Origin: Planktothrix tepida PCC 9214
GTDB lineage: Bacteria > Cyanobacteriota > Cyanobacteriia > Cyanobacteriales > Microcoleaceae
DNA length: 64,000 nucleotides
NCBI RefSeq assembly: GCF_900009145.1
Contig: NZ_LN889801.1
Location: forward strand, 62,001-126,000
Direction: 5' to 3'
Below the pieces are notes generated by a model. It saw nothing but the letters and a program-made list of their open reading frames with translations, searched no databases and was not told where the DNA came from. Positions 16,158-54,076 of the stretch are shown piece by piece. Made by a program: the position numbers and the translations under genes. Every line of letters begins with the position of its first letter. Position 1 is the stretch's first letter.

Positions 16158-17768
16158 GTGAAAACGAGTATAACCAAGACTACGACTGCATGGAATACTA
16201 TCAATTGGGCGAAAGTTCAACGGGTAGTATTTAAGCTGCAAAAGAGAATTTACCAGGCATCATTATCGGGACAAAATGCAAAAGCTCGGAAGCTCCAAAA
16301 ACTTCTAGTCAAGTCATATTACGCCAAACTCTTAGCAATTAGAAGGGTAACTCAAGATAATCAAGGCAAGAAGACATCCGGGATAGATGGGGTTAAATCC
16401 ATCACACCCAAACAACGATTAGAACTTGCCCAAAACTTGAATAAATACCAAAAGGCAAAACCACTCCGAAGGAAATGGATACCCAAACCCAACGGTGAGG
16501 AAAGACCTCTAGGAATTCCAACTATAAACGACAGAGTAAGGCAAGCCTTGGTGAAATCTGCATTAGAGCCACAATGGGAAGCCAGATTTGAGGGTGAAAG
16601 CTACGGGTTTAGACCCGGACGCTCTGCCCATGACGCAATGTCACGAGTCTTCCATAGCATCAAACAAGGGGAATATTACATCCTAGATGCTGACATCTCA
16701 AAATGCTTCGACCAGATTAATCATGATTACCTACTGTCCAAAATTGATTGTCCATCAATAATAAAAGCCCAAATCAGACAATGGTTGAAAGCTGGAGTAA
16801 TGGACAACGGCATATTTGAGGCAACCGAGGCAGGTACACCACAAGGAGGTGTTATCAGTCCTCTACTCGCTAACATCGCACTGGATGGAATGATTAGACT
16901 AATTGAACATAAATTTCCAAAAAAGAAATACCGTGTTCAAGCCCTAGTCATTAGATATGCCGATGATTTCATCGTGGTAAGTCCACAATTAGAAATTATT
17001 CAACAGTGCATGATTGAAATCGAAGAATGGTTAAAACCTATCGGATTAGAACTGAAACCAGCCAAAACCCGAATTTGCCACACATTAAGAGAAATCGAAA
17101 TAAACGGCGAAAAGGTAAAACCAGGATTCGACTTTCTAGGCTGGAACTTCCGGCAATATCCAGTTGGTAAACACCATTCTAGTAAAACCGGAAGTCAAAA
17201 ACCCAAATTATTAGGTTTTAAAACCTTAATCAAACCTAGTAAGAAATCAATCAAAGCTCACTCGGATAAGGTGAAGGAAGTAATTAAAACCCACAAAACT
17301 GCACCCCAACACGCATTAATCAAAAACCTAAACCCAGTCATAAGAGGATGGTGTAACTACCATTCCAAAGTTGTTTCCAAAGAAACATTCTCCTCATTAG
17401 ACTATGTTACATGGCAAAGATTAAGAGCATGGACAGTCAGCCGATGCGGTAAAGCAAGTTACAAAAAACTGAAAAACTACTTCAGAAAAAACGAGAATAG
17501 GGCATGGAGTTTTGAAACCAAAGACGGGTATAAACTACTAACCCATGCAGAAATACCTATCACCCGCCATGTAACTGTAAGACCTGACGCATCACCTTAT
17601 GATGGAAACTGGACTTACTGGAGTACAAGAAAAGGAACATCTTTTGATGTACCTAAAAGAGTAGCAACTTTGCTCAAAAAGCAAAAAGGTAAATGTAACT
17701 TCTGTGGACAATATTTTACCCCAGAAGATGTTGTAGAAATCGGGACACAATTCATCCTACATCTTTAG
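16158..17768 (+). CDS. ltrA: group II intron reverse transcriptase/maturase, frameshifted in the HNH domain
   Basis: Intron-encoded protein that promotes splicing and retrohoming. It starts at GTG 16158. The RT domain has LDADISKCFDQI, GTPQGG and the YADD active site (267-270). A maturase domain X follows (NPVIRGWCNYH). The C-terminal HNH endonuclease begins CNFCGQYFTPEDVVEI, but then two extra nucleotides near 17740 shift the frame to a short false tail (GTQFILHL) and stop. The rest of the HNH domain (LGGKNEYKNLQLLHRHCHD) is readable in the other frame to a TGA at 17875. RT and maturase look intact, and the endonuclease is broken. Confidence 0.88.
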   Translation: MKTSITKTTTAWNTINWAKVQRVVFKLQKRIYQASLSGQNAKARKLQKLLVKSYYAKLLAIRRVTQDNQGKKTSGIDGVKSITPKQRLELAQNLNKYQKAKPLRRKWIPKPNGEERPLGIPTINDRVRQALVKSALEPQWEARFEGESYGFRPGRSAHDAMSRVFHSIKQGEYYILDADISKCFDQINHDYLLSKIDCPSIIKAQIRQWLKAGVMDNGIFEATEAGTPQGGVISPLLANIALDGMIRLIEHKFPKKKYRVQALVIRYADDFIVVSPQLEIIQQCMIEIEEWLKPIGLELKPAKTRICHTLREIEINGEKVKPGFDFLGWNFRQYPVGKHHSSKTGSQKPKLLGFKTLIKPSKKSIKAHSDKVKEVIKTHKTAPQHALIKNLNPVIRGWCNYHSKVVSKETFSSLDYVTWQRLRAWTVSRCGKASYKKLKNYFRKNENRAWSFETKDGYKLLTHAEIPITRHVTVRPDASPYDGNWTYWSTRKGTSFDVPKRVATLLKKQKGKCNFCGQYFTPEDVVEIGTQFILHL

Positions 17769-19757: not shown

Positions 19758-20156
19758 CTAGTGAGAGTTTTGGTTAGCAATATACTTTTTGATAGTTTCA
19801 CTAGAAACAGAACCAGCCGTCCCACAATAATAGCTTCGACTCCACAAAGAAGGTAGTTTAAGTAAATGAGGAAATTCTTTTCTTAATATTCTTGATGATG
19901 CCCCTTTGATTCTGAACATAATTTGATGTGGAGCAATCAAAGGGTGACAACTAATAAATAAATGCACATGATCAGGCATTATCTCCAGAGCTAGGACATC
20001 ACATTCTAGCTCTTTTGCTTTTTGGTAGATAATTTCCTCTAATCTTCTGCTCACTCCGTTAACCAACACCCTTTTCCTCCTTTTTGGGCAAAAGACAAAA
20101 TGATAGTTGATCAGACTAACTGATGTGTTTTTTCTTCTATATTGATTTTCTGTCAT
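19758..20156 (-). CDS. tnpA: IS200/IS605 transposase TnpA (HUH Y1)
   Basis: Single-strand transposase that cuts and rejoins at subterminal hairpins. It has 132 residues. The HUH metal motif is MPDHVHLFI. The nucleophilic Tyr lies in SSETIKKYIANQ, the normal position. The N-terminal NYHFVFCPKRRKRVL strand matches the family. It ends next to the left-end hairpins and is divergent from tnpB. No inactivating change is visible. Confidence 0.93.
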   Translation of the reverse strand: MTENQYRRKNTSVSLINYHFVFCPKRRKRVLVNGVSRRLEEIIYQKAKELECDVLALEIMPDHVHLFISCHPLIAPHQIMFRIKGASSRILRKEFPHLLKLPSLWSRSYYCGTAGSVSSETIKKYIANQNSH

Positions 20157-20191
20157 TGTCGATACACACGATTCATCAACCTTATGTTATC

Positions 20192-21418
20192 ATGGATGAC
20201 ATGACAAAAATAACTCGGACGATTAAATTGAAATTCGTGGATCTCAACCGTTGTAAAGCTCAGGTGTTTGAGCAAATGACGGCAGAAAACACACGGGTTG
20301 CCAACAAGCTGTTGTCATTGCCGATTAAAGAACGGCGTAAAATGACAACAGCTAAAATTATGTCCGAGTTAAAATCTGCCCTTGTTAACCAAGTAATCCG
20401 ACATACCACATCACCCACAGGTCGTAAAACCAAACAATATAAAGTTCTTCCTGTGGAAGTTAACAACCAAAACTGGAAGTTAACCCTAAAAGGGAATACT
20501 TATTCAATTAGTTTTCCAACCCTTAAAGGTGAAAAAAGAATTCCCATTGAAGTTGCATCTCCCCATTGGCAACCTGTTTTAGACGGATTGTTAGAGGGAA
20601 CAATTCAAGGGGGTTCTTTTAAATTAATTAAACATCGAAATAAGTGGTATGCCTATCTGTCAATTACTGAGGATGTTCCAGAAGTTAAGACGGAGAAAAG
20701 ATTAGGATGTGACCGAGGACAGAATAATTTAGCGGTAGTTGCACCTAAACAGGGTTTTGGTAAGTTCTTTAATGGTCAAAGCGTTAAGCATCGGAGACGT
20801 TATTTTCAACAACGAAGAAAACAACTTCAAGAAGCTAAAAAGTTTCGAGCATTAAAGAAATGGGACAAAAAAGAACGACGATGGATGGATGCAATCAATC
20901 ATACAATCAGCCGTCGAATTGTTCGTTTTGCCGAATACCATAATGCTGATGTTGTTATTGAGGATTTAGAAGGATGTCGAAGCACAATGAAACAGAGCCA
21001 AAAATCTCGTTCTGATTCCGGTGAATCTCGACATAATTGGTCTTATTATTCTTTGGAACAGAAACTTAATTATAAGTTGGCTCTTAAAGGATTGAAATTA
21101 ATTAAAAGACCTGCGCCATACACTTCCAAATCCTGTTCAACCTGTGGTTTTATTGGTAAAAGAAATCGACATGATTTCAATTGCCCTAATGGTCACTACC
21201 ATAACTCTGATTTGAATGCTGCGAAAAACCTAGCTCAATGGGACGGTTTTTCTTGTCAGTTAGACCTACAGAGAGATGCTTCTGTAATGGATTCATCCGG
21301 TTTAACTGATGGGGTGCTTGGCACACCCCTGAACTCGGTGAATACAGTCAAACAAGAGTATATTCAACTGTCTCTGCTTGACTGGACTAGATACGAGAAT
21401 CCCACCCCTTTAGCGTAG
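20192..21418 (+). CDS. tnpB: RNA-guided endonuclease TnpB of IS200/IS605
   Basis: Cas12-ancestor nuclease that, with an RNA from the right end of the element, cleaves the donor joint to maintain the transposon. From ATG 20192 it has about 408 residues. The RuvC triad is visible as Asp in GCDRGQNNLAVV, Glu in VVIEDLEG and Asp in HNSDLNAAKNLA. The zinc finger is CSTCG plus CPNGH. An upstream in-frame start at 20123 overlaps tnpA and is unlikely. All catalytic residues are kept. The tail after the RuvC domain is about 50 residues and ends beside the right-end hairpin. Confidence 0.93.
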   Translation: MDDMTKITRTIKLKFVDLNRCKAQVFEQMTAENTRVANKLLSLPIKERRKMTTAKIMSELKSALVNQVIRHTTSPTGRKTKQYKVLPVEVNNQNWKLTLKGNTYSISFPTLKGEKRIPIEVASPHWQPVLDGLLEGTIQGGSFKLIKHRNKWYAYLSITEDVPEVKTEKRLGCDRGQNNLAVVAPKQGFGKFFNGQSVKHRRRYFQQRRKQLQEAKKFRALKKWDKKERRWMDAINHTISRRIVRFAEYHNADVVIEDLEGCRSTMKQSQKSRSDSGESRHNWSYYSLEQKLNYKLALKGLKLIKRPAPYTSKSCSTCGFIGKRNRHDFNCPNGHYHNSDLNAAKNLAQWDGFSCQLDLQRDASVMDSSGLTDGVLGTPLNSVNTVKQEYIQLSLLDWTRYENPTPLA

Positions 21419-48251: not shown

Positions 48252-49685
48252 TCAATCTTGAGACCGCTTTTTCACATATTCTTTAATCACAGGTTGAAGG
48301 GTGAAGCCAAATGCTTCCCTGTCTATAGCTTTTTCAATTAAACCGCGTTTCCTCAAAGACTGTACGGCTTTCAAAAATTCTGAGTCCGACAAAAATTCTG
48401 CGGGTTTACTGCAAATATCTGCTGCTGTCTCTTGGTTAGCTAACCATACCATGACCAATTTTTCTGACTCTGATAACCTTTGATAATGTTCCTGTAATAT
48501 TGTTTCTAAGTCTCCTAAAAACAGAGTAGAATAAGATAGAAATTGAGCAACGCTACCATTAAATAAATCGAGTATCGTTAAAGCAATAATGTTTAACCAG
48601 GAAGGGTTTCCGCCATAAAGATTAATCAGTTTTAACCATTGATCTTGATCATTTAATCCTCTCGCCTTCAAGAGTTGTTCTCCTGACTCTCCTAAACCTT
48701 GAAGTTCTAAACTTCGACAATGGGAGTTTTCAGCTTCTAAGGTAGCAATTTCTATGGGTTTTTCCCAACTCAGGAGTAGCAAGCAACTGTTATGTGACGA
48801 TCGCCCAATTTGCTTTAATAATTTACCATAATTTTTGTATTCTGGGAAATAACTACCGACTAATTCCCCACTGGTTAATGTTTCTTGAAAATCATCAAGG
48901 ATAATCAAACAACGATGCGATCGCAAAGAGTCAATAATTGATAATTGTTGAGTTTCTTGCTGTCGGAAAAGAAACTCAATTAAGTTAGTTTTTAGGGATT
49001 TTAGACTAGAAAATTGACTATGACTTCGCCAGATTACCCGATCAAAGTCCTCTTTTATGTGTTCAACCAGTTGGGTAGCGAGGGCTGTTTTACCAATACC
49101 AGATAATCCAAAAATAGTGATGATACGACTATTTTCCGTCAGTATCCATTGTTTCAAGGTGTTTAATTCTTGGGTGCGGTTGCAAAATATTTCGCATTCT
49201 GAGACTTCGGTTATATCGTGGTATTTTTCGGGTTCATTGTTGTCTGAGTTAACGGGGGAAGGTGATCGGTTTTTTGTGGTTTCTTGAGAATGCGGATTTT
49301 CTCCACAGACTGTAATGCTACTTCCAAAAGATTGACTCTGTACAACAAAATTACCCACTTGGGAATTAGAAATATTATACCGTTCCATCGTGGCGCGGAA
49401 GTTTGATTTATTAACTTTTTCGCCTAATTCTTTTGATATTATTTCCCATAAATTGCTTGCAACTCTCTTGACATTCGCTTCACTACAGTGATAGCGTTCA
49501 GCAATTTCTCCATATTTTTGATTATGCCAAACCCCTATTAACACAGCTTGTTGTAGACTATTTAAGTGTGTTCCTGTTTTGATAAACATCAACTCATCGG
49601 CCCACTTCAGGATTGTTTGAACATCCATAGGCGATACAAATATTATTTTGTCAGAAATCATACTACTTTTTTCATCCTTTTGCAA
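48252..49685 (-). CDS. STAND-type NB-ARC ATPase with N-terminal HTH-like domain
   Basis: A 477-residue signal-transduction ATPase. Residues about 20-100 form a helical domain common at the N-terminus of cyanobacterial NB-ARC/WD40 proteins (DVQTILKWADELMFIKTGTHLNSLQQAVLIG, EIAERYHCSEANVKRVAS), resembling a sigma-like HTH. The P-loop is FGLSGIGKT (192-200), and Walker B is CLIILDDF (259-266). A winged-helix-like part ends the protein. The usual C-terminal WD40 or TPR sensor is missing. It is divergent from the precursor-peptide operon with 241 nt between starts, so it may regulate that locus; that is inference. Confidence 0.8.
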   Translation of the reverse strand: MQKDEKSSMISDKIIFVSPMDVQTILKWADELMFIKTGTHLNSLQQAVLIGVWHNQKYGEIAERYHCSEANVKRVASNLWEIISKELGEKVNKSNFRATMERYNISNSQVGNFVVQSQSFGSSITVCGENPHSQETTKNRSPSPVNSDNNEPEKYHDITEVSECEIFCNRTQELNTLKQWILTENSRIITIFGLSGIGKTALATQLVEHIKEDFDRVIWRSHSQFSSLKSLKTNLIEFLFRQQETQQLSIIDSLRSHRCLIILDDFQETLTSGELVGSYFPEYKNYGKLLKQIGRSSHNSCLLLLSWEKPIEIATLEAENSHCRSLELQGLGESGEQLLKARGLNDQDQWLKLINLYGGNPSWLNIIALTILDLFNGSVAQFLSYSTLFLGDLETILQEHYQRLSESEKLVMVWLANQETAADICSKPAEFLSDSEFLKAVQSLRKRGLIEKAIDREAFGFTLQPVIKEYVKKRSQD

Positions 49686-49826
49686 CTTTTTTTAACTAAA
49701 CTCTACTTTTTAAACCAATGACTACTCAAAAAGGTCTGTCAAAATCTATCCAAACTTAGACTTTTTATGACTTTACAAATTCCTGAGAATGCTTATTATG
49801 AAAAAGAGAGATAAAAATTAAATAAA

Positions 49827-49846
49827 CTAGCTTTCAAGAGAGCTAG
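49827..49846. promoter_or_regulatory. inverted repeat upstream of the precursor gene
   Basis: CTAGCTTTC and GAGAGCTAG form a 9-bp stem with one wobble around AA, 81-100 nt before the precursor start. It may be an operator or a leader hairpin. It lies in the divergent gap with the NB-ARC gene. Confidence 0.45.
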
Positions 49847-49926
49847 ATTTGTAGTCCAATATGAAATGACTGCTTGATTTTCAAGGGTATATTCATAGAA
49901 ATTCGTTTAATCTTAGGAGAAAAGTC

Positions 49927-50121
49927 ATGAACCCAGACAAAACAGTTGAAAACATGGAACAGAAATTTAGCGCCCTCAGTGCTGAAGATTTGGAAAATTT
50001 GGAAGTTGAAGAACTTGAACAGCGTCTTGAGTTAGCAGCTATTGATTATACTGCAACTATTATCACCTTTGCGGCGATCAAAACCCCTGATTGTAGGACA
50101 CTAGGCGTTTGGTTTTGTTAG
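49927..50121 (+). CDS. RiPP-like precursor peptide
   Basis: A 64-residue peptide with an excellent ribosome-binding site (AGGAGA at 49915-49920). Residues 1-37 are a charged, acidic helical leader (SALSAEDLENLEVEELEQRL). Residues 38-64 are hydrophobic with Thr and few charges and end in TPDCRTLGVWFC, with Cys56, Trp62 and Cys64. This leader-plus-core plan is typical of ribosomally made, modified peptides. The Trp third from the C-terminus matches its place in ComX pheromones, and the terminal Cys is an alternative prenyl acceptor. The modification enzymes are inferred from the next two genes. I know of no named family for it. Confidence 0.65.
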   Translation: MNPDKTVENMEQKFSALSAEDLENLEVEELEQRLELAAIDYTATIITFAAIKTPDCRTLGVWFC

Positions 50122-50143
50122 GATATAAATCTAATTTCACCTG

Positions 50144-50196
50144 ATAAATGCAGAATTCGTACAGGCTTTTACACTGTAAAATCTGCATTTATTTTT
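50144..50196 (+). terminator. attenuator-like hairpin between precursor and biosynthetic genes
   Basis: ATAAATGCAGA (50144-50154) pairs with TCTGCATTTAT (50182-50192), an 11-bp perfect stem enclosing an inner palindrome TTTTAC-ACT-GTAAAA (50167-50181), followed by TTTTT. Partial termination would raise the ratio of precursor to enzyme transcripts. Confidence 0.7.
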
Positions 50197-50232
50197 GTTC
50201 ATTTTTGATATTTATTTATTCGATTTAAAATC

Positions 50233-51198
50233 ATGAATAATTTTAACTTTACAGAGAATCATAATAACAACACAGATTTGATTGCGAAAGCAAACTTGCT
50301 ACAAGCTCAAGAAACTATCGAAAATGTCGATAAAATTATTTGTGGTTTAGGTAACCAATGGCCTAATGATATAGAATTCCCAATAAACTTTGTTTTTTTA
50401 GAAAGATTTGGGCCTCTATTATTTTTAGATGTTTTTCCATCACTGACCCTAGAAACAATTCGCCCCATTATGGTTGCTGAAAAACTTTTAGGAACATCCT
50501 TGGTTATGTGTGATTGGATTACAGATCGTACAAACGATGCTTTTCTAGCCACTAAATACGGCTTGAGCATTCAAGCAATGCAGTTAGAAGGTTATCATAT
50601 TTTATACTCTATTTTTCCTCCAAATTCAAAATTTTGGCAACGTTTTCGCAACTATTACCAAGAATATATGGATGCCTGCATTAAAGAACAAAAATTCGCT
50701 TCAGGCGAGTTACCCTTCTCTGAATATACCGAAGAATTAGCAATTGAAATCACGGCTAATAAATCAGCACCTATTAAAAGTAATATTGCTGCTTTAGTAG
50801 AATTGTCAGGGGATGAGAGTCTTTTTGAACCTTTGACTGCTGCTGTTAAACAGTATCTAATTGCTCGTCAAATCTGGGACGATATTCAAGACTGGAAAGA
50901 AGATTTACAGTTTGGTATTCCTTCTTTATTACTGTCGCGTATTATTCAGGAATGGCCGATTAAACCTGATGAAATTAACCTAAAAAACTTAACTAAAAAA
51001 ATGTACTATGGCGGACATATAAACTATGTAATCGAAATCGCTTGTCAAAGTCTTGAACTCGCTAAAGAACTAACAAAAGATATTCCCGAACTGGCTTGGC
51101 GAAGTGTAGCAATTTCAGCTTTAGAGAGTAATTTTAAATCACTATCTCAGGATATCGAAAAAATCTGTAATAAAAATCTTGAATCATTGCAAAAGTAG
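50233..51198 (+). CDS. class-I isoprenyl-synthase-fold protein, ComQ-like candidate peptide prenyltransferase
   Basis: A 321-residue, all-helical protein. The second Asp-rich motif is perfect: RQIWDDIQDWKEDLQFGIP (DDxxD at 216-220). The first is altered: LVMCDWITDRTND, where Cys93 replaces the first Asp and Asp94, Asp98 and Asp102 remain. This is the trans-isoprenyl diphosphate synthase fold, related to terpene synthases. ComQ of Bacillus has the same fold and prenylates the Trp of ComX. Position directly after a Trp/Cys-ending precursor suggests peptide prenylation. Alternatives are chain elongation or a terpene cyclase. The prenyl donor is unknown. Confidence 0.7.
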   Translation: MNNFNFTENHNNNTDLIAKANLLQAQETIENVDKIICGLGNQWPNDIEFPINFVFLERFGPLLFLDVFPSLTLETIRPIMVAEKLLGTSLVMCDWITDRTNDAFLATKYGLSIQAMQLEGYHILYSIFPPNSKFWQRFRNYYQEYMDACIKEQKFASGELPFSEYTEELAIEITANKSAPIKSNIAALVELSGDESLFEPLTAAVKQYLIARQIWDDIQDWKEDLQFGIPSLLLSRIIQEWPIKPDEINLKNLTKKMYYGGHINYVIEIACQSLELAKELTKDIPELAWRSVAISALESNFKSLSQDIEKICNKNLESLQK

Positions 51199-51217
51199 AC
51201 TATTCAAAACAACATAA

Positions 51218-52417
51218 ATGCACAAAAAATATAGCTTGCAAGAACTTCAAAAAAGACTGGTGGTGGAAACATCAGAAAATCGACCTGTTTATTTATTATT
51301 AGTGGGTAATCCCCCCAAATATATCCGATTATCTGTTTTTGCCTATGAACTCCTCTACGAAAATAGCTTAGGTAAATCCTTTGAAGAAATTTCTGAAATA
51401 GTCCGGCAAAAAACAGGGAAAAATCTATCACCCTCTGAGGTAGAGGCAGCTTATCAAAAAGTCATCTCTGACCTGAGCGAAATCGAAGAAAATAAAAAAA
51501 ACCAGCTTTCAGGTTTTTTACTGCGCCTGCCACTTATCCCCCAAAAAATTGTTAATAAGATTGCATCTTATCTTTCAGTTGCCTATTATCAACCCGTAGC
51601 GATTTTACTTTTAACTATTATTATTGTAGCTACAGGATTTGCCCCGCGAAATGATTTATTTTTAAGATTGGCAAAAGAAGACTTAATTTGGGGATACTTT
51701 TTCTTTTTCATTTCTCTGCTATTCCACGAGTTAGGTCATGCTAGTGCTTGCGTTTATTATGGGGCAGAACCTAGTAATATTGGTTTAACAATTTACTTCA
51801 TATTTCCAGCCTTTTATAGCGATGTCACCGATGCTTGGAGATTGAAACGTTGGCAGCGCGTCATCATTGATTTTGGAGGAGTATTTTTTCAACTAATTGT
51901 TGGTGCAATTTATATAATTTTTTACAAATTTACGGAATGGGCTGCCCTTAAAATAGCTATTTTAGCGATCGCTTCCAGTTGTATTTTATATCTAAACCCA
52001 GTCTTTAAATTTGATGGTTACTGGGCTTTATCAGACGCTTTAGGTGTGACCAATCTCAGTCGAGAACCCGGACGCATTTTCCGTCACATATTTAGTCAAA
52101 TCAACAACCCATCAAACAAGCGTTTACCCTGGTCTCCACTAATGATGTCTTTTCTGGCAATCTACACAGTTACTAGCTTTAGCATTATAGGATATTTTAT
52201 CTGGCTAGTTTTCCCAATTTTATGGCGACAACTTCTGGGCTATCCTCTTGTAATAACTACCTTCATCGAGAAATTATTCACTTCCCCTAACCAACTGGGT
52301 TTTGAGCAAATTACATCTTTTCTGACTTCTACATTGATGGTCGGTATCCTCTTGTTAATAGGTTGGAAATTCATCCAATTTTTATTGACGGCTATGAGAA
52401 GATTATTGAAGAAATGA
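51218..52417 (+). CDS. M50 site-2-type metallopeptidase with N-terminal PqqD-like (RRE) domain
   Basis: A 399-residue membrane protein. Residues 10-90 form a PqqD-like domain (KYIRLSVFAYELLYENSLGKSFEEISEIV, LSPSEVEAAYQKVI), the fold used as RiPP precursor recognition element. The M50 peptidase part has HELGH (170-174), SDVTDAW and NPVFKFDGYW with the third metal ligand Asp266, among about six hydrophobic segments. Related peptide zinc metalloproteases occur in RiPP clusters. It starts 19 nt after the isoprenyl-synthase-like gene. The likely role is cleaving the leader or releasing the modified peptide across the membrane (inference). Confidence 0.78.
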   Translation: MHKKYSLQELQKRLVVETSENRPVYLLLVGNPPKYIRLSVFAYELLYENSLGKSFEEISEIVRQKTGKNLSPSEVEAAYQKVISDLSEIEENKKNQLSGFLLRLPLIPQKIVNKIASYLSVAYYQPVAILLLTIIIVATGFAPRNDLFLRLAKEDLIWGYFFFFISLLFHELGHASACVYYGAEPSNIGLTIYFIFPAFYSDVTDAWRLKRWQRVIIDFGGVFFQLIVGAIYIIFYKFTEWAALKIAILAIASSCILYLNPVFKFDGYWALSDALGVTNLSREPGRIFRHIFSQINNPSNKRLPWSPLMMSFLAIYTVTSFSIIGYFIWLVFPILWRQLLGYPLVITTFIEKLFTSPNQLGFEQITSFLTSTLMVGILLLIGWKFIQFLLTAMRRLLKK

Positions 52418-52418
52418 C

Positions 52419-52522
52419 TGTACATCCCTCTTTTGTCACTAAGAGGAATTTGGAGAAAGTTACGTCATTTCAGGCTACGGAAAATCAAGGTTTTCCCTTA
52501 AAGTGACAAAAGAGAGGTACAT
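52419..52522. repeat. MITE-like element with terminal inverted repeats
   Basis: TGTACATCCCTCTTTTGTCA (52419-52438) at the left matches the complement of the right end near 52502-52522, sharing the 13-nt core CTCTTTTGTCACT and the TGTAC tip. The 104-nt unit encodes nothing and begins two nt after the stop codon of the M50 gene. Confidence 0.65.
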
Positions 52523-53782: not shown

Positions 53783-54076
53783 CTACGCACATCCGCTATC
53801 GCGCTCGATGTGCGTTTCTGACGCTTCAACTGAGAAACTTGCTTGAAGCTTCCGCACTCCTGTAGAGGTATTCTCATCTGCATCTGAAGAGGCACGTTCC
53901 ATACCCCTTGCATAATTAAGCATCACCATTGCTGCGGCAACATCTCTATCACAATGAAACCCGCAATTAACACAATGATGTTCTCTTTCTGCTAATGTTT
54001 TCTTCTTCTGATGACCGCAATTTGGGCAAGTTTGTGAAGGTTTAACTTTTTGAGTGGGAACCTCAACTTGTCCCAT
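53783..54076 (-). pseudogene. C-terminal fragment of an IS200/IS605-type TnpB
   Basis: The frame encodes only the zinc finger (CPNCGHQKKK, CVNCGFHCDRD) and the last RuvC Asp region (DRDVAAAMVMLNYARG) of TnpB, then a tail of about 40 residues. The N-terminal three quarters are absent, and the sequence before MGQVEVPTQ changes frame (GWDKLR read in another frame). It is unrelated in detail to the intact tnpB at 20.2 kb. This is a decayed element remnant. Confidence 0.85.

Follow-up and report, generated by a model that had tools for sequence, protein, structure and literature searches.

Peptide prenyltransferases built on a trans-isoprenyl-diphosphate-synthase-like (trans-IDS-like) fold are already in print, and all characterized members target tryptophan according to passages of a review (PMC13290415). 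In PalQ/PalX of Paenibacillus alvei, an isoprene-synthase-superfamily enzyme is encoded beside a small precursor whose C-terminal Trp is conserved; PalX carries an NHLP leader, ends in Trp and belongs to a three-gene cluster with a histidine kinase, and ComQ, placed in the same superfamily by description, has no second Asp motif in the part of that paper that treats it (PMC10853753). ChrPC, a trans-IDS-like prenyltransferase (PT) fused to a terpene cyclase, acts on an internal Trp (Hubrich et al., 2024, as summarized in passages of PMC13290415). Here we describe three adjacent genes in a 64,000-nucleotide stretch of Planktothrix tepida PCC 9214 (contig NZ_LN889801.1, positions 62,001 to 126,000; “the window”) that look like a reduced relative of these prenylated ribosomal peptide pathways, a kind described recently. 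This three-gene set was not described in the literature searched (open-licence papers only). A first-pass annotation of the DNA, made from the letters alone, had stated that no cyanobacterial system with this set was known; that statement has to be narrowed, as Trp-directed peptide prenyltransferases of the trans-IDS-like kind have been published and two cyanobacteria carry larger versions.

A precursor, a prenyltransferase-like enzyme and an M50 protease

The locus consists of open reading frames (ORFs) of 64, 321 and 399 amino acids, all on the forward strand (as are the window features below unless stated), and in the order precursor peptide (49927..50121), proposed stand-alone trans-IDS-like peptide prenyltransferase (50233..51198) and M50 metalloprotease (51218..52417) with a predicted recognition element (RRE) for ribosomally synthesized and post-translationally modified peptides (RiPPs). 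A divergent gap of 241 nt (49686–49926) precedes the precursor, followed on its far side by a 477-aa NB-ARC ORF on the reverse strand. The gene set, the conservation pattern, the predicted folds and the relatives presented here were all obtained by computation. We assign a probability of roughly 0.7 to the reading that the genes form a three-gene RiPP pathway, with leader-guided prenylation of Trp62 by the stand-alone enzyme and release by the RRE-M50 protease. Specifically, the 64-aa precursor would be bound via its acidic leader; the enzyme would take a C10–C20 allylic diphosphate from the ordinary synthases of the genome and prenylate Trp62, in the way that ComQ and PalQ modify their own Trp; and the membrane M50 protein would grip the leader through its N-terminal RRE and cut the prenylated peptide, so that the released (perhaps exported) product would be a short lipopeptide from the C-terminus, around C-x5-W-x-C. 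We infer in this scheme the prenyl donor and its length, the acceptor, the order of steps, the cleavage site, export and a function as signal or antimicrobial. Such a locus would constitute a very small unit, with a 64-aa precursor, a single enzyme and a single RRE-protease, for cyanobacterial ribosomal lipopeptides outside the cyanobactin type.

The precursor has a leader of about residues 1–42 (..LSAEDLENLEVEELEQRLELAAIDYT) and a core towards the C-terminus, which ends TLGVWFC and contains C56, W62 and C64. The same gene order recurs in an Oscillatoriales metagenome-assembled genome of the same family but another genus (L002, RDXH01000007.1, counted with G631 as one genome; enzyme 65% identical) and in G386 of the same genus (L003; enzyme 97% identical). 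These three close precursors can be aligned over the leader as far as AAIDYT, after which the only invariant residues are Phe48, Pro54, Cys56, Trp62 and Cys64, and C-x5-W-x-C is fixed at all three C-termini. Compared with L002, 37 leader codons comprise 19 same, 11 synonymous and 7 non-synonymous, vs 3, 2 and 11, respectively, for the last 16 residues (stop codon excluded); compared with L003, the leader has 1 synonymous and 0 non-synonymous changes and the rest has 1 and 5. Judged by these codon changes, the precursor evolves like that of a RiPP, with conserved leader and variable core, and a chance ORF is ruled out because the frame is kept in three genomes with RiPP-like codon changes. Within its own genome, a precursor profile found the window copy only, plus a weak 23-residue match (E-value 0.21), and a precursor search of the plasmid collection returned no match.

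For the enzyme, a trans-IDS fold is predicted from a low-confidence helical model without strands, whose structural matches include trans-IDS proteins and whose best Foldseek match is the tryptophan prenyltransferase Ord1. Ord1 farnesylates free Trp (in the relevant passage of PMC13290415), whereas the substrate proposed here is the precursor peptide. The first Asp motif, D94-x3-D98 (D94-WIT-D98; 50512..50526), has its counterpart in D89 and D93 of PalQ (PMC10853753, in the part on that motif); the second, D216DxxD220xxxD224 (50878..50904; D216-D217-IQ-D220), is preceded by Gln213 at three residues, and KSA stands at 177–179. An Asp pair with an upstream Gln (D94/D98 and Q213) marks trans-IDS-like Trp prenyltransferases, though weakly in this case: Gln213 is common to the three housekeeping synthases of the genome and is thus not diagnostic. 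Like PalQ, the enzyme has a DxxxD first motif, and a profile links it to a PalQ-like pair (E-value 3.3e-8) and not to those three housekeeping synthases, whose invariant motifs it lacks; unlike ComQ, here compared by description only, it has the second Asp motif. The links extend to the PalQ-like locus of Paenibacillus cellulosilyticus and to PT-cyclase fusions, a comparison set without characterized members. PDB sequence searches with the enzyme gave nothing significant (best trans-IDS match E-value 0.03, with a seven-row profile), and no cyclase domain was matched in its 321 residues.

The M50 protein carries the HExxH zinc motif (HELGH, residues 170–174; 51725..51739) and an NP-x4-DGYW-type motif (DGYW at 266–269). 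Its N-terminus (approximately residues 1–96; 51218..51505) is predicted to be an RRE: the AlphaFold2 model (pLDDT 79.9) has a short N-terminal helix, then three strands and three helices, i.e., the PqqD-like winged-helix beta3-alpha3 arrangement, in agreement with its structural matches, and no PqqD match was found for this region by Pfam or PDB sequence. The full protein matches the M50 families of two RiPP pathways, daptide (NF041824; E-value 5e-34, 118 bits, below the curated cut-off of 300) and epipeptide (NF058609; E-value 1.1e-15, 58 bits, below the cut-off of 225), likewise HExxH membrane proteases. Daptide and epipeptide pathways involve other modification chemistry.

Much of this had been anticipated by the first-pass annotation. 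The ORFs, the 241-nt divergent gap, an attenuator-like hairpin and the TLGVWFC ending are present as it described; a RiPP precursor with leader and core is backed by the three-genome alignment, the codon changes and related leaders; the isoprenyl-synthase fold by the fold model and Foldseek matches; and an M50 protease with a PqqD-like RRE by the AlphaFold2 model and structural matches. It had also named a frame not conserved at protein level, and synthase homologues lacking a nearby small peptide, as observations that would count against it: the precursor is kept in L002 and L003, with the same three-gene order and C-terminal C-x5-W-x-C, and small peptides adjoin nearly all related enzymes (below).

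Relatives in Cyanobacteria and Bacteroidota

The enzyme is rare, found by single-sequence search in one of 386 cyanobacterial genomes (its own), with strong matches in 2 of 59 relatives (its own genome and G386) and seven-row profile matches in 6 of 388 genomes of the order; viral contigs gave no match. Two genomes of the same order, G657 and G622, encode proteins of 682 and 702 aa. Over their first ~300 residues these proteins share 41 and 40% identity with the window enzyme, and in their C-terminal part they match the squalene-hopene cyclase C-terminal domain (4.4e-18 and 8.5e-16). Their precursors carry the same leader as the window precursor (..VEELERRLELAVATTAGWGGSC.. and ..VQELEKRLELAVATTAGWGCQNKGC..), and their clusters include a radical SAM/SPASM protein and an M50 protein that shares 50 and 48% identity with that of the window over 381 and 399 residues; the G657 cluster also holds CAAX-protease-like and glycosyltransferase proteins. 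We set these fusions together with ChrPC, as its relatives, by the domain order described in passages of the review (PMC13290415). Hence two loci with the PT-cyclase order share leader, PT (40–41%) and M50 protein (48–50%) with the window, while the window enzyme, unlike the ChrPC type, stands alone, and no radical SAM, CAAX-protease-like or glycosyltransferase gene was recognised adjoining it.

The elaborate clusters (L069 561–9117 and L071 1356–10266) contain the radical SAM/SPASM, precursor, PT-squalene-hopene-cyclase-like fusion and RRE-M50 genes together with an ABC-permease-like gene seen by eye, the CAAX-protease-like and glycosyltransferase genes being shown for G657; this content suggests that the peptide is modified in several ways. 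Elsewhere in G657, a degenerate PT-cyclase-like protein of 676 aa overlaps the end of an NHLP-like peptide gene (L070 4812–7017), and no adjoining precursor was recognised for the third profile match (L070 11277–12221; a 314-aa ORF, G657:C2:2250519).

Outside Cyanobacteria, two Hymenobacter plasmids (L035 5887–8214 and L037 5698–8294) carry the enzyme, then an M50 gene whose product has a similar N-terminal stretch, and after it one or two genes for small peptides that contain F-x4-L and one Trp each; they are distant Bacteroidota versions of the gene set. A Muribaculaceae plasmid (L038 2511–6113) encodes a 47-aa peptide whose leader-like stretch contains F-x4-L, and beside it an outer-membrane-receptor-like gene and an M50 gene of the same type. 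Its near-copy L045, a contig of the cyanobacterial assembly G138, was at first a candidate second cyanobacterial M50 relative and was dropped as probable contamination because it shares the genes of the Muribaculaceae plasmid. The 6.1 and 9.7 kb examined of the two showed no prenyltransferase. Also set aside were L044 (E-value 2.4e-5), whose motifs and neighbours mark it by eye as an ordinary polyprenyl synthase, and, as noise, L004 and L005 (E-values 0.10 and 0.47). PalQ-like frames with no listed gene were seen at two more loci. In the Tolypothrix PCC 7910 plasmid (L036 1–1115, spanning the record origin), the frame precedes an Os1348/NHLP peptide that has a single Trp and the near-motif FQDVDLEKRLD; in P. 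cellulosilyticus (L048 3773–6274), it comes with a tandem array of five NHLP-like peptides, all with Trp as the penultimate residue and each with a different last residue. One P. cellulosilyticus peptide matches NHase_alpha (the nitrile-hydratase-like leader) at 1.8e-16.

Altogether, small peptide genes adjoin the enzyme at 10 of the 11 enzyme-like loci examined (window, L002, L003, L035, L036, L037, L048, L069, L071 and two in L070), one L070 peptide being Trp-less and the other L070 locus having none recognised. The window set is distinct from the PT-cyclase fusions (no cyclase), from ComQXPA (no adjacent ComP kinase or ComA regulator, and no ComP/ComA-like gene recognised adjoining the cluster) and from NHLP/PalX, whose leader differs (NHase_alpha gave no match in the window precursor at E-value 1). 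We see about even chances that the window holds the most basic version of a separate RiPP class spread over Cyanobacteria and Bacteroidota, comprising a motif-bearing leader, a one-Trp core, a stand-alone Trp prenyltransferase and an M50 protein whose RRE may serve both enzymes, with the PT-cyclase clusters and their radical SAM, CAAX-protease-like and glycosyltransferase genes as elaborations. The locus ties a stand-alone putative Trp prenyltransferase, PT-cyclase fusions and RRE-M50 proteases together as one family reaching Bacteroidota plasmids.

Acceptor residue and competing explanations

Eight leader-type precursors bear on how the product is made: those of the window, L002, L003, G657, G622 and DG01, and two of BRD128 (the last three being Hymenobacter peptides). 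All eight contain the leader motif [LFIM]-x4-L-x2-R-x-E, which reads LEVEELEQRLE in the acidic leader of the window precursor, and all eight contain exactly one Trp, which in the window is encoded at 50110..50112 and is third from the C-terminus, as in ComX of Bacillus subtilis 168. In the part of the source that covers it, L-x4-L in an acidic leader is an enzyme-contact hotspot of a leader-dependent lanthipeptide prenyltransferase (PMC12715784); the window leader has two such stretches. Leader similarity to the window and to L002 was reached in 0 of 2000 shuffles for both G657 and G622, and in 0 and 5 for DG01. It was weak for the Muribaculaceae (162 and 104) and Tolypothrix (105 and 221) peptides, for DG01 against G657 and G622 (86 and 104), for a P. 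cellulosilyticus peptide (266 and 1094) and for another small DG01 ORF (1021 and 367).

Where the M50 protein cuts is the point on which the best-surviving alternative differs. In a review passage, TglG and TmoG of 3-thia-amino acid biosynthesis are membrane M50 enzymes that remove modified residues from the C-terminus, and the conserved residues of the window precursor lie at its extreme C-terminus; the protease could by analogy free a very small prenylated fragment and leave the rest as a scaffold. We hold this to be unlikely, as the Trp lies 15th to 27th from the end in the G657, G622 and Hymenobacter precursors, which accompany related M50 proteins.

A second alternative concerns the acceptor, which the first-pass annotation had left between Trp62 and Cys64. 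Prenylation of Cys64 or Cys56 would make the enzyme a bacterial analogue of CaaX-type S-prenylation. In its favour, neither Cys varies among the three close precursors, two Cys occur in each of the G657 and G622 precursors, and the G657 cluster includes the CAAX-protease-like gene. However, Cys is absent from the DG01 precursor and is confined to the leader in BRD128 peptide a. Because Trp is present once in all eight precursors and Cys is not universal, Trp62 is the likely acceptor on sequence grounds, in preference to Cys56 or Cys64, and the Trp half of the earlier proposal is favoured. The Trp-only record of characterized trans-IDS-like transferases (review passages, PMC13290415) argues the same way, and S-prenylation appears improbable.

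About as improbable is a ComX-like pheromone system with the NB-ARC protein as receptor or regulator. The helix-turn-helix (HTH)-NB-ARC (STAND) gene (48252..49685, reverse strand) is divergent and adjacent in L002 as well as in the window, and the first-pass annotation had made it a dedicated regulator. Yet its protein has 32 matches in its own genome (itself included, some partial), the eight paralogues examined lie beside varied genes, and the L002 neighbour is 36% identical to it vs 57% for the nearest paralogue; at the Hymenobacter, G657 and G622 loci, where no domain search was made, neither the annotation nor inspection by eye showed an NB-ARC gene. We did not adopt the regulator proposal: its tie to the cluster is doubtful, and a role is possible but not supported. 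Weakest of all, and very improbable, is an enzyme that makes a small-molecule terpene or prenyl diphosphate beside a peptide with another role. The fold is common to geranylgeranyl diphosphate (GGPP) synthases, which rank above Ord1 in VIA-align, but the enzyme lacks the motifs invariant in housekeeping synthases, is closer by profile to peptide-associated enzymes and has relatives adjoined by peptides at 10 of 11 loci.

Several observations weigh against leader-guided Trp62 prenylation with release by the RRE-M50 protease. The enzyme model is of low confidence (pLDDT 52.7, pTM 0.55); Ord1 stands at row 50 of the VIA-align ranking, below ordinary prenyl diphosphate synthases; no meaningful Pfam or NCBIfam match was found for the enzyme (best Pfam Sec3_CC, 0.03–0.07); and identity to the PalQ-like protein is ~25%, the Paenibacillus locus being called PalQ-like from its neighbours and not from the PalQ sequence. 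Among the relatives, the three Hymenobacter peptides were selected for their position and motif, the BRD128 leaders resemble that of the window weakly (76 and 39 of 2000 shuffles for peptides a and b; 216 and 68 vs L002), and L070 pairs its degenerate enzyme with a Trp-less NHLP-like peptide. M50 relatives are not specific alone (72 plasmid records match at 1e-3), and an exporter was not recognised by eye next to the cluster. Finally, PalQ refuses residues after its Trp (in the passages of PMC13290415 at hand), and Trp62 is followed by two, so that the window enzyme would have to act more like ComQ or ChrPC-P; it may tolerate two residues after the acceptor, unlike PalQ.

Surroundings of the cluster

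Between precursor and enzyme genes, a hairpin (50143..50193) is followed by a T-rich stretch. The fold of the 117-nt stretch that holds it was equalled or bettered in 1 of 200 shuffles (z −2.95), with similar values for its counterparts in L002 (1 of 200, z −3.23) and L003 (0 of 200, z −5.28), and one arm (ATCTGCATTT) is invariant in the three genomes; a terminator scan did not list this hairpin, which we infer to act as an attenuator or in mRNA stability. Upstream of the precursor lies AGGAG (49915..49919), which resembles a ribosome-binding site, and 3′ of the cluster lies a perfect inverted repeat with 13-nt arms separated by 61 nt (52428..52514, no strand assigned).

The immediate neighbours of the cluster are the NB-ARC gene and a patatin gene. 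HTH-NB-ARC genes of ~460 aa form a large family in this genome, and three of the eight paralogues examined lie divergent to genes for small, secreted-looking proteins (by eye); the L002 NB-ARC gene has an in-frame run of PPL-x-RGGEERQT-like repeats (L002 6497–6718). By eye, a short zinc-finger-bearing TnpB-like C-terminal fragment (53783–54076) and a longer TnpB-like ORF (20123–21418) appear to be transposon remains near the cluster, and a group II intron reverse-transcriptase-like ORF was seen at 16158–17768.

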